Source of the DNA: Cytophagales bacterium
Lineage (GTDB): Bacteria > Bacteroidota > Bacteroidia > Cytophagales > Flammeovirgaceae
NCBI GenBank assembly: GCA_025056215.1
Contig: JANWWC010000005.1
Location: 124,001 to 188,000, forward strand
Direction of reading: 5' to 3'
DNA: 64,000 bases
A model generated the notes under the pieces. The model was not told the origin of the DNA, did not search any database, and saw only the letters and a program-made list of their open reading frames with translations. How positions within the stretch are numbered: position 1 is the stretch's first letter; each line of letters starts with the position of its first letter. Positions 5,950 through 13,867 of this stretch are shown piece after piece. The position numbers and the translations under genes are program-made.

Positions 5950-7515
5950 ATGAATCCTACGCGTTTTAACATCCTTTGGGCAGATGACGAAATTGATTTA
6001 CTAAAGCCTCACATTTTGTTTCTTAGTCAAAAAGGATATGATGTTACACCAGTAAACAGTGGCGCTGATGCTCTGGAACAATTCGACAAAAAAAACTTCG
6101 ATATTGTGTTCCTCGATGAAAACATGCCTGGTATTTCTGGATTAGAGGCACTCATGCATATTAAGCAAAAAAAGCCTCATGTACCAGTAGTTATGATTAC
6201 CAAGAGCGAAGAAGAAAATATTATGGAAGAAGCCATTGGTGCTAAGATTGACGATTATTTGGTCAAGCCTATCAATCCGAATCAGATTTTAGCTTCAATA
6301 AAAAAAATTTTAGACCAGAGCCGCTTAATATCTGAAAAGGTAAGTCATTCTTATCGCCAAGAATTTCAAAGCATCAGTTTAGCGTTTGACGATGCTCTTA
6401 CTTGGCAGGGGTGGATAGAAATCTATCGAAAACTATGTTTTTGGGATTTGCAAATCTCGCGAACGAATACTAAAGACATGTTAGAAGTACTCGAAATGCA
6501 AAAAGCAGAAGCGAACATCAATTTTTTTAAGTTTATTAAGAACCATTATGTCGATTGGTTGAATAATCCTAAAGCAGATCGTCCGATTCTTTCCCATGAA
6601 GTTTTGCGAAAAAAATTGTTTCCTTTGCTCAAAGAAGAATCTCTTATTTTTTTAATTCTTATTGATAATTTGCGTTACGACCAATGGAAAGTTTTGGAGC
6701 CAGAAATTGGCAAGATGTTTCATATTGCAGATGAAACGATGTACTACTCAATTTTGCCTACTACTACCAGCTATGCGCGAAATGCTATTTTTTCGGGAAT
6801 GTTGCCATCTGAGATGGAAAAATTTCACCCTGATTTATGGCTCAACGACAATGATGAAGGTGGAAAAAACTTGTATGAAGAAGAATTTTTACGCCGTCAA
6901 CTCAAAATGCAGCATATTGGAGAAGTAAAAATGAATTATCATAAGGTGATTCATCAACAACAAGGCAAAGAAATTTTACAACATTTTCACAATCTTTTGC
7001 TCACAAAGTTTAATGTAATTGTATATAATTTTGTAGATATGCTTTCTCATGCGCGTACAGATGCAGGAGTGATGCGAGAACTTGCTCCCGATGAAGCTGC
7101 TTATCGCGATTTAACGCTCACCTGGTTTCAACATTCTTCTCTCTACGAGTTATTGAAGCAACTTTCTGAAAAAAAAGTAAAAATTGTGATGACGACCGAT
7201 CATGGCACTATTCGCGTAAAGCGCCCCTATAGAATTATAGGAGATAAAGAAACAAACACTAATTTGCGCTATAAACAAGGAAGAAATTTGAGCTACGATA
7301 AAAAATACGTACTTTCTGCTAAACCAGAAGACTTTCATTTGCCCAGAACTACAGTGTCTACCACTTATGCATTTGCGTCAGAAGATTATTTTTTTGCATA
7401 TCCGAACAACTACAACTATTATGTGAATTTTTATAAAGATACTTTTCAGCATGGAGGCGTTTCGCTTGAAGAAATGATTGTTCCTATTGTTACGTTGCAT
7501 AGCAGAGCGTTGTAA
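5950..7515 (+). CDS. porX: PorX: response regulator with PglZ-type phosphatase domain (T9SS regulator)
   Basis: This 521-residue two-domain protein has an N-terminal CheY-like receiver (about 1-120): acidic pocket Asp12-Asp13, phospho-acceptor Asp56 in FLDENMPG, Thr84 and Lys106 in DDYLVKP. A middle helical region leads to a C-terminal PglZ/alkaline-phosphatase-fold domain with IDNLRYDQW, TTSYARNAIFSG, TTDHG and a His-rich end (FQHGGVSLEEMIVPI). In Porphyromonas and Flavobacterium the orthologous PorX pairs with the kinase PorY and the sigma factor SigP to control T9SS genes, and its C-terminal domain has Zn-dependent nucleotide phosphodiesterase activity (established for the family). No kinase gene is adjacent, as is usual for PorX. 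It links functionally to sprA and the PorP-like gene in this window. Confidence 0.92.
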   Translation: MNPTRFNILWADDEIDLLKPHILFLSQKGYDVTPVNSGADALEQFDKKNFDIVFLDENMPGISGLEALMHIKQKKPHVPVVMITKSEEENIMEEAIGAKIDDYLVKPINPNQILASIKKILDQSRLISEKVSHSYRQEFQSISLAFDDALTWQGWIEIYRKLCFWDLQISRTNTKDMLEVLEMQKAEANINFFKFIKNHYVDWLNNPKADRPILSHEVLRKKLFPLLKEESLIFLILIDNLRYDQWKVLEPEIGKMFHIADETMYYSILPTTTSYARNAIFSGMLPSEMEKFHPDLWLNDNDEGGKNLYEEEFLRRQLKMQHIGEVKMNYHKVIHQQQGKEILQHFHNLLLTKFNVIVYNFVDMLSHARTDAGVMRELAPDEAAYRDLTLTWFQHSSLYELLKQLSEKKVKIVMTTDHGTIRVKRPYRIIGDKETNTNLRYKQGRNLSYDKKYVLSAKPEDFHLPRTTVSTTYAFASEDYFFAYPNNYNYYVNFYKDTFQHGGVSLEEMIVPIVTLHSRAL

Positions 7516-7788
7516 ATTTTACCATTTATTAAAACTGTCGGATGAGAGTTTTTATAAAAGATATGTGCAAAGCTTAATTTGAGAAGTTCAGCAGGTACGC
7601 TAAAAAATCAAAAATCTGCTAGGTAGGATTCATTAATGATGTCTCCATTTCTAAATTGTTTTTGGCCAAAAATCTTGAAGAAAAATCGAAATGAGGGGCG
7701 AAATTTTTGGATACTTTTCAAACAAGAAAACCAGATAGACACTGAAAAAATATCAATAATAGTTACGTAGCAACGCCTAATAAATAAC

Positions 7789-9147
7789 TTAATAGCGAGT
7801 GAAAAATATTCTTAGTTTTACACGGTTTTCATTGCTATGTGGAATGGCAAGAAGCCTTAATCTTTGCGAATTTTCAGGGCGAACTACTACACTTGCGCCA
7901 ATATTTAAGGTAGAGTTCGTGATAGAATGAGCCAACCGAGTAAGCAAGATGGGGCTATAATGGCGCCTTTCTTCGGAATAGTTAGTAGTAAAAATTTGAT
8001 TAGATGACGGAGAAGCTAAAAAAGAGTGATATAAAACTCTCGAGAGCGTATCAGTGAGATGAAAGCGAAGACTTTGAGGAACTCTTTCTTCTATCATTTG
8101 CGGTTGAAAAAATAATTCAGCTCGATTTAAAATAATTTGATGGTTGCGAATTAATGAAATGAGAGTTGGGAATGAAACTTTAATTCCAAGAGGTAAGCCT
8201 TCCTGTAAGATTCCATAATAATCAGTTTGTTCAACAGGAATTTCTTTTTGGGTTTCGATATTTTTAAGTTTTCCTGTTGTATAATCACTTTCTAAATGAT
8301 AAAAATGTCGGTAATAATAGAAAGGAATGCTGTCTTTAATCACTTGTCCGTTAGATGTGACGCGTGTAAAATACTGAATCATAGCAATTCGGCTAAAACG
8401 ATTGAGAGTTCCTGTAAGGGTGTTTGTGACGTCAAAAAGTTTTATACTGAGTCCGCAAGTAGAATCTTTAATTTTGAAAGCGAACCCCTTAAAAGTTTCT
8501 TGAAAATTTTTTTGAAGTCGCAAAACATCGGTATTTTGAGCAGCAAGAAGTTTATTTTTGAAACTTCCCTCGATTGGAATGCGCAAAGAGATAGAAGTGG
8601 TCAACTGGTTTCGCGTAAAAGCCAAATATGAAATAGGCACGAACGTAAAACTTGTTACTAAATTGCCGATGGGAAGTTTTTCTGAGAACGTGTAGTTTTT
8701 TTCAGAAAAGATTGTATCTAAAGTTTCATAAATTTCTAAAGTAACGGGTTGGCTGAGGTTTCCGCGAAAGTCAGTAATTTGAAGAGGCATGATAAGAGAA
8801 TCGGGATTCCCGAAGGAAAGAGCAGTTTCTCGGTTTCCTAAAAATATCGATGCGAATCCTGTAGCTACGTGAGTTCCTGTAAGTTGATTACTCAAATTGC
8901 CAATCGGCATTTCTCCAGAACTTGTATTGGAAGTAAAAAATGAGTCTAGGAATACTGTAGAAACGCGAACAGAGATTGTATCTGTAAAAAAGGTTTTTAT
9001 TTGTAGGTCGTTGGGTTGTAGCTCTATAGGAAATTGAGAAGGTGTTTGGCACGATGTTATGAAAAAAAATAACAGAACAACCTGAAGTTGTTCTGTTATC
9101 GAAAAAAAGAAAAAACGTTTAATTAACGAGTTTGCTATAAATCTCAT
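7789..9147 (-). CDS. DUF4270 family lipoprotein
   Basis: This 452-residue protein of the Bacteroidota DUF4270 family is probably lipid-anchored in the outer membrane. A hydrophobic signal ends in the lipobox ITSC with Cys33. The body is beta-rich, with repeated FLGN/GNL-type stretches and FYYYRHFYHLESDYTTG. Function is unknown; in many Bacteroidota it lies directly downstream of a short glycogen synthase, as here, so a link to surface or storage carbohydrate is often suspected but unproven. The ATG at 9147 lies inside the glgA 3' end (29-nt overlap); no later Met precedes the lipobox. Oddly, codons for the signal peptide also encode a 13-bp hairpin followed by a T-run on this strand, a terminator shape. 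Confidence 0.85.
   Translation of the reverse strand: MRFIANSLIKRFFFFSITEQLQVVLLFFFITSCQTPSQFPIELQPNDLQIKTFFTDTISVRVSTVFLDSFFTSNTSSGEMPIGNLSNQLTGTHVATGFASIFLGNRETALSFGNPDSLIMPLQITDFRGNLSQPVTLEIYETLDTIFSEKNYTFSEKLPIGNLVTSFTFVPISYLAFTRNQLTTSISLRIPIEGSFKNKLLAAQNTDVLRLQKNFQETFKGFAFKIKDSTCGLSIKLFDVTNTLTGTLNRFSRIAMIQYFTRVTSNGQVIKDSIPFYYYRHFYHLESDYTTGKLKNIETQKEIPVEQTDYYGILQEGLPLGIKVSFPTLISLIRNHQIILNRAELFFQPQMIEERVPQSLRFHLTDTLSRVLYHSFLASPSSNQIFTTNYSEERRHYSPILLTRLAHSITNSTLNIGASVVVRPENSQRLRLLAIPHSNENRVKLRIFFTRY
9062..9099 (-). terminator. Strong intrinsic-terminator hairpin downstream of glgA, inside the DUF4270 5' codons
   Basis: On the minus strand a perfect 13-bp stem (arms 9087-9099 and 9069-9081, loop of 5 nt) is followed by eight T residues (9069-9062). 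It lies 20 nt after the glgA stop codon, where a terminator is expected, yet 16-28 codons into the DUF4270 reading frame. It could end most glgA transcripts and attenuate the lipoprotein gene. Confidence 0.75.
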
Positions 9148-9931
9148 AGTATTTTTCTGTAAAGTTTTCAGACTGCTCTACTGTATTAACAGTTTTGTTA
9201 GGCAAGTCTGCAAATATATCTTTTAATTTTTCATTCAAACAACTATGAGCATTAGTAGCAGCGTCTGAATATTTAAGTCCTAATTTGATAAATCCGCGGA
9301 AGTCGCCTGATTTCAAATCTGCTAAGTGATTGTCGTCTATATCTTGCATTTTAATTTTTTCGATAATGTCTTTATAAGAAAATTGATGATTAAACCCTGT
9401 ATCGAAAATAGTAAAGACAGTTTTTACGTTTTTAAAAGTAGGATCGTTTTTATAAGTAGTCTTAAGGTATAAAGGAATCAAACTTGTCATCCAGTCGTTG
9501 CAGTGAATAATGTCAGGAGCCCAACCAAGCTTTTTGACAGTTTCTAAAACCCCTTTACAGAAGAAAATAGCGCGTTCATCGTTGTCGTGGTAGAATTGAG
9601 AATCTTTGTCCCAAAAAACAGACTTGCGATGAAAATAATCCTCGTTATCAATAAAGTAAACTTGGAGCCTTGCTGTAGGGATAGACGCTACTTTAATAGT
9701 GAGAGGTTTTTCTTCATCGCCTACAGAGATGTTCATGCCTGAGAGTCGTACAACTTCATGAAGCCTGTTTTTTCTTTCATTGATACATCCGAATCGCGGG
9801 ACTAAAATTCGGATTTCCATACCACGTTCTTGCATGTATTGCGGGATTGCTCTCACGTAATCGGCGACATCTGTGGTTTTTAAAAATGGGTTTATTTCGC
9901 TCGATACGTACAGGATTTTAAGTCTAGGCAT
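9119..9931 (-). CDS. glgA: Short glycogen/starch synthase-like protein (GT5 N-terminal domain)
   Basis: This 270-residue protein matches the N-terminal Rossmann domain of GT5 glycogen/starch synthases. It has the opening KILYVSSEINPF strand, VRAIPQYMQERGMEIRILVPRFG, and the nucleotide/acceptor-side segment IIHCNDWMTSLIPLYLKT. Classical GlgA proteins are about 480 residues with a second Rossmann domain carrying the catalytic Glu and the ADP-glucose site; that half is absent. The usual KTGGL-type motif reads KTTDVAD. Short forms like this are common in Bacteroidota and are annotated as glycogen synthase, but catalysis by this form is uncertain. The gene precedes the DUF4270 lipoprotein gene with a 29-nt overlap, a conserved pairing. 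A promoter-like site lies about 40 nt upstream. Confidence 0.8.
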   Translation of the reverse strand: MPRLKILYVSSEINPFLKTTDVADYVRAIPQYMQERGMEIRILVPRFGCINERKNRLHEVVRLSGMNISVGDEEKPLTIKVASIPTARLQVYFIDNEDYFHRKSVFWDKDSQFYHDNDERAIFFCKGVLETVKKLGWAPDIIHCNDWMTSLIPLYLKTTYKNDPTFKNVKTVFTIFDTGFNHQFSYKDIIEKIKMQDIDDNHLADLKSGDFRGFIKLGLKYSDAATNAHSCLNEKLKDIFADLPNKTVNTVEQSENFTEKYYEIYSKLVN

Positions 9932-9970
9932 TTTAATAAGCGGTTTAATGTTAAAAATTCAATCACGCTG

Positions 9971-10004
9971 CAAAAATATAAAAAAATCTTTTAATTTTAT
10001 GCAA
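9971..10004 (-). promoter_or_regulatory. Candidate Bacteroidota promoter for glgA
   Basis: Minus strand: TATTTTTG at 9978-9971 fits the -7 element TAnnTTTG, and a TTG at 10004-10002 lies 23 nt upstream as a weak -33 element. It sits about 40 nt before the glgA ATG. Confidence 0.35.
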
Positions 10005-10042
10005 CTTTCTACATAAACTTTTGATTATCTGAAGTTTTTGAA

Positions 10043-10073
10043 TTTGATTGCAGATTTTTTATTGTTAAATTTT
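10043..10073 (+). promoter_or_regulatory. Candidate Bacteroidota promoter for the dioxygenase gene
   Basis: TTTG at 10043-10046, 19 nt spacer, TAAATTTT at 10066-10073 (7 of 8 with TAnnTTTG). The start codon at 10090 follows closely, implying a leader of about 10 nt. Confidence 0.4.
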
Positions 10074-10089
10074 ATATAACATTAATTCT

Positions 10090-10608
10090 ATGAGTATAAA
10101 GAGACCTTTCCCTTTGAAGACTTGGATAGCAGAAAATCGAGATAAGCTCAAGCCTCCTGTAGGAAACCAACAAATTTACCTTCAAAACGATGATTTTATC
10201 GTAATGGTAGTAGGGGGACCTAATGCGCGCCGCGATTATCATTATAATGAAGGGGAAGAGCTTTTTTATCAGATAGAAGGTGATATTACTTTAAAAATTA
10301 TCGAAGATGGGCATCCTGTTGATATTCCAATTCGGGAAGGTGAAATGTTTTTATTGCCTCCGCGCATTCCTCATAGCCCCAGACGCCCTGCCAACACAGT
10401 AGGTTTGGTAATCGAACGCTATCGACGCAAAGGAGAAAAAGACGGCTTTATGTGGTTTTGTGAGAATTGTGGCGCCAAACTGCACGAAGAGTTTGCTGAA
10501 ATTACAGATATTGTAGCACAATTGCCTCCTATTATGAATCGTTTTTATAGTAATCCTTCGTTGTGCACTTGTCAGCAATGTGGAACAGTAGCTGTTAGAC
10601 CTTCTTAG
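10090..10608 (+). CDS. 3-hydroxyanthranilate 3,4-dioxygenase
   Basis: This 172-residue cupin dioxygenase opens the ring of 3-hydroxyanthranilate in the kynurenine route to quinolinate and NAD (or degradation). Fe(II) ligands of the family are visible: His in DYHYNEGEELFYQ with the following Glu, and the later His in PRIPHSPRRP; the PRRP segment carries substrate-contacting Arg. A C-terminal rubredoxin-like metal site is complete (CENC near residue 126 and CTCQQC near 162), as in bacterial homodimeric forms. No other kynurenine-pathway gene is nearby, so the remaining enzymes must be elsewhere. Its stop overlaps the convergent neighbour by 14 nt. Family assignment is secure; cellular use (NAD synthesis versus tryptophan breakdown) is inference. 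Confidence 0.9.
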   Translation: MSIKRPFPLKTWIAENRDKLKPPVGNQQIYLQNDDFIVMVVGGPNARRDYHYNEGEELFYQIEGDITLKIIEDGHPVDIPIREGEMFLLPPRIPHSPRRPANTVGLVIERYRRKGEKDGFMWFCENCGAKLHEEFAEITDIVAQLPPIMNRFYSNPSLCTCQQCGTVAVRPS

Positions 10609-11110
10609 TTAAGTAGCGATGCAATATCGAAACCGATTTTTGTAGGATTTCTGTGTCGTTTCCTACAAATAAATGGTAAGAAAGATTGTTTGCGACAATC
10701 GTAAGTTGTTGTTCTCCTGCAAATCCGTAATAAAGAAGCATGATTCCTATCAACACAAAAATACCACTTATCCATGCACTAATAACATGAGCATGAAAAG
10801 CTAATATGGTGAAAGGAAGTAAAATACCACCTGTAAGAATAGGAAGAATGAAGCGTTTGCGTTGGAAATAAATGTTTCTGATTTGTGGAACTAACCATTT
10901 TTGTTGTACACTTCCAGCGCGAGCGTATAAATATCGATTTGTAAGATGCAGCTCGTTGCCGTTTGCAAAACGCACGTGCAGAAGATGATTTTCTGGAAAG
11001 TTTATCCATGAAAATTGAAAGCTGTACGTATAAACAAAATCTTTTTGGAGACTTGCAGAATACGACCATTTCCAACTATAAAAAGAAAGTTGTAAGGGTT
11101 GCTGTATCAT
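10595..11110 (-). CDS. Unknown membrane protein with two adjacent hydrophobic segments
   Basis: I do not recognise this 171-residue protein. Residues about 1-90 are soluble and beta-rich, with a string of aromatic and basic positions. Two neighbouring transmembrane segments follow (about 92-112 and 114-132: GGILLPFTILAFHAHVISAW and GIFVLIGIMLLYYGF), then a 40-residue tail. The overall plan (beta-rich flank plus a helical hairpin) resembles bacterial PH-like membrane proteins, but that is only a resemblance. It is translationally coupled to the gene upstream on the same strand by a 4-nt overlap and converges on the dioxygenase gene. Confidence 0.6.
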   Translation of the reverse strand: MIQQPLQLSFYSWKWSYSASLQKDFVYTYSFQFSWINFPENHLLHVRFANGNELHLTNRYLYARAGSVQQKWLVPQIRNIYFQRKRFILPILTGGILLPFTILAFHAHVISAWISGIFVLIGIMLLYYGFAGEQQLTIVANNLSYHLFVGNDTEILQKSVSILHRYLTKKV

Positions 11111-11992: not shown

Positions 11993-13867
11993 TTAGAGTT
12001 TTACGGCTACCATAGTAATATCATCTCTTTGTTTTTCAGTTCCTTGGTGGGCATCTAATTCCTCTAAGATAATATCGCGCTGCATAGAAAGAGGTTCTTT
12101 GTAGATAGATAAAATAAGCTCGGTGAGTCGTTTCATGCCAAATTTTTGTCTAGCAGCATTATTCTGGTCAGGTAAGCCGTCAGAGAATAGATAAATCAAA
12201 TCTCCGCTCTGCAAAGTGAGATGATGTACTTCGAAGGGAGGTTTCTCTGCATGGAAGCCTCCTCCAATCATGCGTTTGGTTCCTTTTAGTTCGAAAAGTT
12301 CTCCGCTGCGTACGACAAAAATACTTCTCCTAGCAGCAGTAAACAGTAAATCAAAATGGTTTTGATGATTTTCATGACGTTTGATTGCACATAATGCAAT
12401 ATCCATTCCGTCTTTGTTTTTGCTTTTTTGTTGTTGCAACGCTTCTTCAATTTCAATATCCAAGGCGTCGAGAATAAAAGCAGGCTCGTAATTTTTTTGT
12501 TCAATAATGATTTTATTGAGTAAGTCATTTCCAATCATGCTCATAAATGCACCAGGAACGCCATGACCTGTGCAGTCTGCCACTGCTAAGAAGATAGTTC
12601 CTTTTCTTCTAGTGAGCCAATAAAAATCGCCTGAAACTAAGTACTGGGGGCGATAAATAATAAAGTAGTCGAGAAAATATTGTTGAAATTCTTCCTCGTT
12701 TGGTAGAACTGCCTCTTGAATAGTTTTTGCATAGCGAATGCCTGCGGTGAGCTGCTCTTGCGATTCTTCTATACGTGCTTTCTGTTCGCTAATTTTTTGA
12801 ATACTTTCGCGCACTTTTTTGAGCATGAAACTAAAATCACGGTATAACTTTCCAATTTCGTCGTTTGTGTTGATAGGTTGTATGGTCTCCTTTTCGTCAA
12901 AATCGGATTGAATGATACGGTGAATGGAGTTGGAGAGAGATTGTACGGGGCGACTTAGTGCATTCGTAATAAAAATACCCAATGCCACATTCAGAAAAAT
13001 TGCCATCATAACCACGATTGCCATCACCCAATTTACGCGATTTTCAATTTTTTTAGATTGTAATAATACATCAGTGTTCACGACGCGAATGAGTGTTTCT
13101 ATATCATTTGTTTTTCGGATAAGTTCCCCGCGCAATCCATGCTTGTTGTCGAATCCTATGGTTTTTTCTGCCTGTACAAGTTTAAAAAACGAACTTTGGT
13201 AATTATCTAGTAAGTTGTTAATTTCTTGAAGAATATCTTTGCGTTTTATTTTGGTAGAAGCGTCTTTTTGTAGCTCAGCAATCGTTTCTGAGAGTTTTTG
13301 GATGTATTTTTCTTCTTTTCTTAAAATAAAATCTTTTTCGTGACGGCGAATCATGAGCAGTTTTACTTTATCTATCGCATAAGGGAGTTGTTCAATCTGG
13401 TGAATATAGCGGCGCATTTCGCCTTCTACGCCGTAGTCTTTAAAGCCTCGGTACAACACCACTTCCACAAATTGCTCAAAAGTTCGTTCGAAGGAATCGA
13501 GTTTGTTAGTAAGTTGTTGGATTTCATCTTGGATTTCGAGCTCTTGTAAATCTTTAGCGCGTTTTAGTTTGTTAAGTTCATCTTTTATTTCTCTGAGTAA
13601 GCTCTGATGATGTTCTAAATAGATGCTTTTCTTAGTAGCATAAAATTCTGGGTTGATGGTCTCATCTATTAAAAACTCTTTTTCTAAAGCACCAATTTCT
13701 TGAATTTTGAAGTTAATAGTAGTGAGTGTAGTGGCGATGCTTTCTATTCTTTCTTTTACACTATTAAACCAAAAAGTAGTTCCTGCCACAATGCACGTGA
13801 TTAGGAAGAACAGTGTAAAAGAAAGTATAAGCTTAGAGCGAATAGAACGAAAAAGCTTTTTTTTCAT
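11993..13867 (-). CDS. Membrane-bound SpoIIE-type PP2C phosphatase with HAMP domain
   Basis: This protein of about 624 residues is a sensor-type serine phosphatase. An N-terminal transmembrane helix (LILSFTLFFLITCIVAG) is followed by a long helical extracytoplasmic sensor region, a second helix (AIVVMMAIFLNVALGIFI, about 290-310), a HAMP linker with LSRPVQSLSNSI, a short coiled coil and the PP2C/SpoIIE domain. Catalytic metal motifs are present: SGDFYWL, VADCTGHGVPGAFMSMIG, KDGMDIALC, FSDGLPDQ and RDDITMVAV. Such proteins usually dephosphorylate anti-sigma antagonists or act downstream of two-component signals. An ATG 39 nt further upstream (13906) exists, but the Met before KKKLFRSIRSK gives a normal signal-anchor, so 13867 is preferred. 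Downstream lies the decayed receiver, so its signalling circuit may be altered. Confidence 0.88.
   Translation of the reverse strand: MKKKLFRSIRSKLILSFTLFFLITCIVAGTTFWFNSVKERIESIATTLTTINFKIQEIGALEKEFLIDETINPEFYATKKSIYLEHHQSLLREIKDELNKLKRAKDLQELEIQDEIQQLTNKLDSFERTFEQFVEVVLYRGFKDYGVEGEMRRYIHQIEQLPYAIDKVKLLMIRRHEKDFILRKEEKYIQKLSETIAELQKDASTKIKRKDILQEINNLLDNYQSSFFKLVQAEKTIGFDNKHGLRGELIRKTNDIETLIRVVNTDVLLQSKKIENRVNWVMAIVVMMAIFLNVALGIFITNALSRPVQSLSNSIHRIIQSDFDEKETIQPINTNDEIGKLYRDFSFMLKKVRESIQKISEQKARIEESQEQLTAGIRYAKTIQEAVLPNEEEFQQYFLDYFIIYRPQYLVSGDFYWLTRRKGTIFLAVADCTGHGVPGAFMSMIGNDLLNKIIIEQKNYEPAFILDALDIEIEEALQQQKSKNKDGMDIALCAIKRHENHQNHFDLLFTAARRSIFVVRSGELFELKGTKRMIGGGFHAEKPPFEVHHLTLQSGDLIYLFSDGLPDQNNAARQKFGMKRLTELILSIYKEPLSMQRDIILEELDAHQGTEKQRDDITMVAVKL

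Follow-up and report, generated by a model that had tools for sequence, protein, structure and literature searches.

The glgA–DUF4270 junction in the window

How does a first gene obtain a transcript end when the next gene begins inside it and leaves no intergenic space? The question is raised by a 64,000-nucleotide stretch of a Cytophagales bacterium genome (hereafter the window), in which a glgA-like gene overlaps a lipoprotein gene whose signal-peptide codons hold a U-tailed hairpin. The features of the locus are the following.

9119..9931, minus strand: glgA-like gene, first gene of the pair; Glyco_transf_5 only, 270 aa; Pfam PF08323, E = 2e-62
7789..9147, minus strand: lipoprotein gene of the DUF4270 type (452 aa), starting 29 nt before glgA ends
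9119..9147, minus strand: 29-nt overlap of the glgA 3' end with the DUF4270 5' end, from the ORF list
9069..9099, minus strand: terminator-like hairpin with a 13-bp stem and a 5-nt loop, within DUF4270 codons 17–27
9062..9069, minus strand: U8 tract, whose first U is still paired as the final base of the stem; codes for Phe in the signal peptide and runs to codon 29
9049..9051, minus strand: lipobox Cys33 codon, 18 nt past the stem, read from the sequence
9971..10004, minus strand: promoter-like site TTG-N-TANNTTTG upstream of glgA, matching a Bacteroidota-type consensus
9211..9238, minus strand: second promoter-like site TTG-N-TANNTTTG, within the 3' end of glgA and ahead of both the hairpin and the DUF4270 start

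The hairpin reads ATAACAGAACAAC-TTCAG-GTTGTTCTGTTAT on the minus strand, and its arms (9099–9087 and 9081–9069) form 13 perfect pairs, four of them G-C. It begins 19 nt past the last base of the glgA stop (9119). An earlier sequence-only reading had described a perfect 13-bp hairpin with a T8 run just after the glgA stop and inside the DUF4270 frame, and the sequence agrees; the placement in codons 17–28 is right for the start at codon 17, but the stem ends at codon 27. That reading also held that the lipoprotein must start upstream of the hairpin, there being no later Met before Cys33. This point is borne out. Position 9147 is the first start codon of the DUF4270 frame in the ORF listing of the window, and the window sequence holds no in-frame ATG, GTG, or TTG between 9147 and Cys33. 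The upstream start is shared by relatives, the first DUF4270 ATG lying at −29 relative to the glgA end in L004, L006, and L010 of the same family and at −17 in many other loci. On both grounds a DUF4270 start further along, past the hairpin, was rejected. A terminator for the plus strand was rejected because the U-tract is absent on that side, and a described RNA family was rejected because an Rfam search over 7500–10700 gave only one sub-threshold snoRNA match, elsewhere (8391–8453, plus strand, E = 0.41, 20.5 bits against a gathering value of 60).

Folding of 88 nt at the window hairpin gave −22.2 kcal/mol (z = −5.1), a stability equaled by none of 200 dinucleotide shuffles, and the stem had a mean pair probability of 0.99 within a 240-nt context. 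The contribution of codon choice was measured against a null in which the protein is kept and the codons are redrawn from the locus's own usage. The window hairpin lies at z = −5.04 in this distribution, with 0 of 300 draws equally stable, and a second run gave z = −5.95 (0 of 200 draws). No competing antiterminator pairing was present in the minimum-energy folds of the hairpin region, to which this search was confined. Both marks of a predicted intrinsic terminator, a stable stem unlikely by chance and a directly adjoining U-rich tract, are thus present in the window. The hairpin also lies where an internal terminator or attenuator would be expected, between promoter-like sites and a downstream gene that would depend on read-through.

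A consensus terminator scan over 9 kb of the window found three sites against a shuffle mean of 6.0, which is fewer than chance, so a hit in such a simple scan is uninformative alone. The striking feature of the window hairpin is its stem length. For the counts that follow, a terminator-like site was defined as a stem of at least 8 bp with a loop of 3–9 nt and at least five T in eight positions. A 347-kb portion of the window genome contains 55 such sites, with 17 behind stop codons, 7 in gene interiors, and 13 antisense. A match to the definition at a single site is no proof, since interior and antisense sites are found as well. The 17 post-stop sites lie a median of 18 nt past the stop and have 10 bp with 4 G-C pairs (medians), and the window stem is built alike.

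Identity of the downstream lipoprotein

The assignment of the lipoprotein to DUF4270 had been made from the sequence alone, and it holds by homology and gene order but not by a direct Pfam match. The window protein matched no Pfam family at E ≤ 1, DUF4270 (PF14092) included. Relatives do match the model (L008, 3.4e-35; L131, 1.2e-33; L033, 1.1e-9), and BLASTP of the window protein against Pfam-positive DUF4270 relatives gave E = 2e-31 and 1e-20. When a profile was built up from three Pfam-positive members, it gathered 152 of 153 abutting frames, among them that of the window. By these comparisons the window protein is clearly homologous to Pfam-positive neighbors of glgA but too divergent for the Pfam model.

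Codon choice at the glgA–DUF4270 junction across lineages

The relatives search found a glgA match in 96 of 97 genomes (the window's own included), and loci were taken from 70 of its genomes with the weaker matches left out. A similarity search contributed the best 80 of 194 loci, and a class-level search gave a match in 117 of 119 genomes, of which the loci of 40 were used. Loci with the same junction sequence were counted once, and the additional copies of the window locus (L002 and L003) were dropped. The order-level set consists of L001–L084 and L113–L152. Its genome-search loci are from the same family or order, and L033–L084, found by similarity, are mostly Cytophagales-type by title, with at least one (L064, a repeat of L197) from another order. 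L085–L112 are mostly Bacteroidales by title. The 183 loci form 134 clusters at 90% glgA identity, and 40 of the clusters have an in-codon site.

Fold stability against the codon null was determined for 119 of 122 lipobox loci (two were too short and one ambiguous; three further frames have no lipobox). The signal-peptide stretch scored z < −2 in 38 of the 119 and z < −3 in 21, against 35 and 4, respectively, of 726 random windows placed in glgA and the body of DUF4270. In L004, of the window's family, the hairpin is present and the codon signal is not significant (z = −0.98). The excess is local. Over 118 of 123 loci, 46 sites fall in the DUF4270 frame within 180 nt past the glgA stop, versus 1.05 expected, with 6 on the antisense strand; the next kilobase of the frame holds 1 versus about 3 expected, with 1 antisense.

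Where DUF4270 abuts glgA, a site occurs in the first 180 nt in 44 of 96 loci of the order-level set (1.4 expected), in 9 of 30 from other orders of the class (0.26 expected), and in 2 of 27 from L085–L112 (0.04 expected). Three loci with ambiguous letters (L035, L074, and L082) enter this survey in the denominator only; L035 is counted in the glgA tree described below, where the total with a site is 56 instead of 55. The glgA–DUF4270 pair does not require the site, because 52 of the 96 abutting order-level loci have no counted one (L035 included, in which a site is present with ambiguous letters). At loci with no abutting long frame, a site lies in the spacer in 23 of 30 (18 of 20 order-level, 5 of 9 from other orders, and 0 of 1 from L085–L112). 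It seems from these distributions that the glgA transcript needs an end, and that a next gene leaving no room often carries that end in its own codons. The comparison shows that codon choice keeps a predicted U-tailed hairpin in the DUF4270 5' codons in many lineages.

The excess is confined to U-tailed hairpins

Hairpins in 126 loci (those outside L085–L112, with ambiguous loci skipped) were sorted by their tails. Hairpins with at least five T in eight numbered 52 against 1.1 expected. Those with 3–4 T numbered 4 against 3.3, and those with 0–2 T numbered 3 against 4.9. A test on the mean tail (6.27 T against 5.40 expected) was biased, the sites having been chosen for their U tails, and was not used. 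Phe codons just before the lipobox were 23 TTT and 0 TTC in a Marinoscillum-like group, against 180:123 elsewhere in both genes; an Ekhidna-like group had 6 TTT and 2 TTC against 168:116, with no clear bias. The confinement of the excess to U-tailed hairpins, together with the TTT preference of the Marinoscillum-like group, favors selection for termination over selection for a ribosome-slowing stem.

These counts bear on three other explanations. The stem might mainly be a barrier to 3' exonucleases, one that protects glgA mRNA once it has been processed or released by Rho. A stem close to where a first gene ends could serve in this way, and PMC9239205 names an E-hairpin at the galE mRNA 3' end, with Rho-dependent termination about 10 nt downstream. 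A barrier of this kind does not need a U-tract, yet the excess is limited to U-tailed hairpins, and TTT is preferred to TTC before the lipobox in one of two groups. We regard the barrier as an improbable main function. A second explanation holds that the hairpin arose by chance from hydrophobic codons and has no function. Such codons are rich in U, the simple scan did not rise above shuffles, and some doubt would remain if 5' ends had a codon bias that the null misses. Against this, codon-resampled proteins yield 1.4 loci against the 44 observed and 1.1 sites against the 52 observed, other close gene pairs rarely have a site (2 of 115), and the stems carry compensatory changes (below), which makes chance a very poor explanation. 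The third is that the T8–T9 run and stem serve transcriptional slippage or recoding. In-frame T9 runs do occur in several loci, but the frame is open without a shift in the window and in the translated relatives and the T runs are broken at many sites; we give this reading almost no credence.

The same place in relatives

The exact stem of the window was absent from all other genomes examined, among which there is no second species of the window's genus. A terminator-like site after glgA is nevertheless present in 18 of 18 genomes of the window's family. It lies inside the DUF4270 codons in 6 of 6 with DUF4270 abutting and in the spacer in the other 12 of 12. The five nearest relatives with an abutting DUF4270 have a different hairpin in the same place. 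The hairpin of five same-family genomes is AAAGGATTACT..AGTAATCCTTT, and the tail after the stem in same-family relatives, UAUACUUU, is a weaker U tail than the window's. Marinoscillum-like genomes have CGGGATTAGC..GCTAATCCCG and variants followed by T8–T9, and Ekhidna-like genomes have CCGGGATCAAT..ATTGATCCCGG and variants followed by T7; still other sequences fill the place elsewhere. Relatives with the feature include Marinoscillum furvescens DSM 4134 (L033), Ekhidna lutea DSM 19307 (L042), and Raineya orbicola (L053). Base-pair conservation in close relatives had been named beforehand as a test that could refute the proposal. The outcome is mixed but favorable as judged from these genomes: the exact stem is found nowhere else, and another hairpin occupies its place in the five nearest relatives.

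Covariation was analyzed in 14 sequences (13 distinct) of the Marinoscillum-like and Ekhidna-like groups. Standard pairs fill 94.9% of pair cells, and 4 of 12 pairs are changed on both sides. The covariation score of 0.350 exceeds the 0.256 of shuffled alignments (0 of 500 reach it), and slid registers give at most 0.125. The count of double-change pairs, reached by 35 of 500 shuffles, stands out less, and further pair types show no excess (297 of 500). Where loop length differs by one or two codons, the stem stays in place.

A lipobox was called in 47 of the 56 in-codon loci. The stem ends before the Cys codon in 36 of these 47, a median of 13 nt before it, and therefore codes for the hydrophobic core while the U-tract codes for the residues preceding Cys. 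In the other 11 the stem lies past the Cys codon, as in the codons for QPQNLGVVFTD in L054 and L138.

In-codon sites after the lipobox Cys were noted in L053, L054, L138, L114, L115, and L144, several of them in codons of a QPxN..GVxFTD segment.

The position of the stem bears on the alternative set beside attenuation in the sequence-only reading, that the hairpin sets translation of the second gene. In its fuller form, the hairpin would act on DUF4270 translation or export as a ribosome-slowing stem and the U tail would be a by-product of Phe and Leu codons. The usual anchoring of the stem to the lipobox speaks for this, as do L131 and L146, which keep the stem in the signal peptide although their first ATG lies 108 and 79 nt past the glgA stop. 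Under such a role hairpins should be in excess whether or not they carry a U tail, whereas the stretch has no excess of hairpins lacking one. Nor does it account for the 11 stems found after the signal peptide (among them L138, L053, and L114) or for the spacer sites at 23 of the 30 loci where no long frame abuts glgA. The translation reading is accordingly less favored and is in our view unlikely.

In some loci only 4–10 nt separate the glgA stop from the stem, a distance at which a terminating ribosome would interfere with stem folding. On a glgA tree, which was made quickly and has many unresolved forks, the abutting loci require at least 28 changes between presence and absence of a site, and gain is indistinguishable from loss.

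One locus shows a different structure. In L132 (G093:C1) the 18–102 nt past the glgA stop form an inverted repeat of 41 bp, free of mismatches when G-U pairs are allowed and ending in a T tail, and the next long frame after glgA is not DUF4270. This repeat may be a relic of a mobile element rather than a plain terminator.

Promoter-like sites and the route of DUF4270 transcription

Promoters were sought with a Bacteroidota-type consensus. Of 183 loci, 122 have the motif in the 200 nt preceding glgA, whereas 108.5 kb of glgA body contain 3 matches; the final 210 nt of glgA include it in 2 of the 183 (the window and L062). A general DUF4270 promoter inside glgA was rejected on this last count. 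The −7 half-motif alone was found in 7 of 56 in-codon loci, 5 of 97 abutting loci without a site, 0 of 23 spacer loci, and 2 of 7 far loci without a site; the full motif within 260 nt past glgA was found in 2 of 56, 3 of 97, 3 of 23, and 1 of 7, respectively. The rarity of the full motif after glgA means that the spacer loci likewise appear to have no general DUF4270 promoter. DUF4270 is most likely transcribed by read-through from the glgA promoter, since the motif is common upstream of glgA and nearly missing from the glgA end. The promoter-like site within glgA in the window would blur this operon logic, yet it too lies upstream of the hairpin.

Other close gene pairs

A site of this kind was found in 2 of 115 close gene pairs sampled from three genomes, one of the two being glgA–DUF4270. 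ORFs for this count and for the genome-wide site count were called crudely (at least 100 aa), and the control missed rpmH–rnpA because ORFs below 100 aa were not called. In the window's genome, rnpA (L171:12206-12613, G000:C15) overlaps rpmH (12070-12225), and its early codons hold the hairpin AAGAACTCTTT..AAAGAGTTCTT with a U-rich tail at 12285-12308. Among the 30 best rnpA loci (a match was obtained in 53 of 58 genomes), the first 200 nt contain a site in 10, where 0.38 would be expected. Looked for by its start motif only, rpmH lies just upstream in 7 of the 10 rnpA loci with a site and in 8 of 30 overall. The rpmH–rnpA pair resembles glgA–DUF4270 in that its two genes overlap and the second has a terminator-like hairpin among its earliest codons; it differs in that the proteins are others and no signal peptide is involved. 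Because this second, unrelated pair is arranged alike, the data suggest that the arrangement is a more general habit.

Sampling of 63 close pairs in the window's genome gave just one further case, a gene at L170:1087-1761 (G000:C14), presumably aldolase-like from a reading of its sequence. It lies 11 nt after a dehydrogenase-like gene and has CACAGGAATGGTTCCTGTG followed by TTTTATGA in its early codons.

Discussion

The hairpin and U8 tract are probably an intrinsic terminator of the glgA transcript that acts as an attenuator and limits DUF4270 to read-through. The argument is comparative: sites in the codons of abutting frames far exceed the codon null, the excess is restricted to U-tailed hairpins, and spacer sites stand after glgA where no frame abuts. 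On this evidence the attenuation option of the sequence-only reading, a terminator with low-level read-through, is upheld as the better account. The majority of RNA polymerases would be released after glgA at the hairpin and U8 tract, and a minority would read through to make lipoprotein mRNA, giving much glgA mRNA and little DUF4270 mRNA. A transcript carrying the DUF4270 start must cross the hairpin, and for this reason the hairpin would act as an attenuator. Translation could feed into this choice. A ribosome starting at 9147, 48 nt before the stem, could cover the 5' arm and favor read-through, and one that halts where glgA ends, 19 nt short of the stem, would not mask it. Translation initiation at the DUF4270 start, or re-initiation following glgA, would then gate transcription of DUF4270. 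Termination in the cell, its strength, and this effect of the ribosome are inferences.

Known systems share parts of this arrangement. In ABC-importer operons of Clostridia, internal intrinsic terminators set stoichiometry (PMC9045158, excerpts). As at glgA–DUF4270, a leaky stem-loop terminator stands between a highly and a weakly transcribed gene; the stem-loop described in those excerpts is intergenic, whereas the one considered here lies in the codons of the downstream gene. Blocking translation of Bacillus subtilis bmrB lowered downstream expression, which its authors read as more efficient termination (PMC4191407, in part). The bmrB attenuator is likewise an intrinsic terminator within a coding region. 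As given in that part of the article, bmrB is a short leader-peptide frame with predicted antiterminators that controls the next genes; DUF4270 is a full lipoprotein gene, and no antiterminator appears in the window folds. The E. coli galE–galT junction also has a stop shortly after the first gene that is tied to failed translation start of the next, but as described in PMC9239205 it depends on Rho, and the pause lies 130 nt past the galE stop codon, unlike the U-tailed intrinsic hairpin of glgA–DUF4270. In Clostridium perfringens pilC2, a terminator inside a coding gene lowers expression 4-fold; it lies mid-gene, and the parts of PMC6958937 consulted contain no cross-species codon comparison.

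Internal operon terminators are thus already known, and what appears new, as far as found, is a terminator kept by the codons of the 5' end of a full downstream gene. A literature search that left subscription papers mostly outside gave no account of terminators that codon choice maintains throughout an order at the 5' end of a complete downstream gene. This novelty is qualified by E. coli rnpA, which contains a terminator. A literature search for that terminator found no paper.

A broader reading is tentative, and we think it possible rather than likely: that in Bacteroidota the opening codons of a gene that overlaps the one before it are a regular place for intrinsic terminators, making transcription of that gene depend on its own translation start, and that such terminators are picked via synonymous codons and hydrophobic U-rich stretches. 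If true, glgA–DUF4270 and rpmH–rnpA would be two cases of a wider, overlooked layer of operon control, one that may have escaped notice because terminators are mostly sought outside genes.

At the glgA–DUF4270 junction itself, one DNA stretch appears to carry two codes, a lipoprotein signal peptide and a transcription terminator, through synonymous-codon selection, in an arrangement gained or lost many times among abutting loci. Terminator-like hairpins within genes should not be dismissed as noise, and codon-optimizing such genes could alter operon expression. The junction offers a direct test of transcription–translation coupling in Bacteroidota: if the two are coupled, broken DUF4270 initiation should lower read-through.
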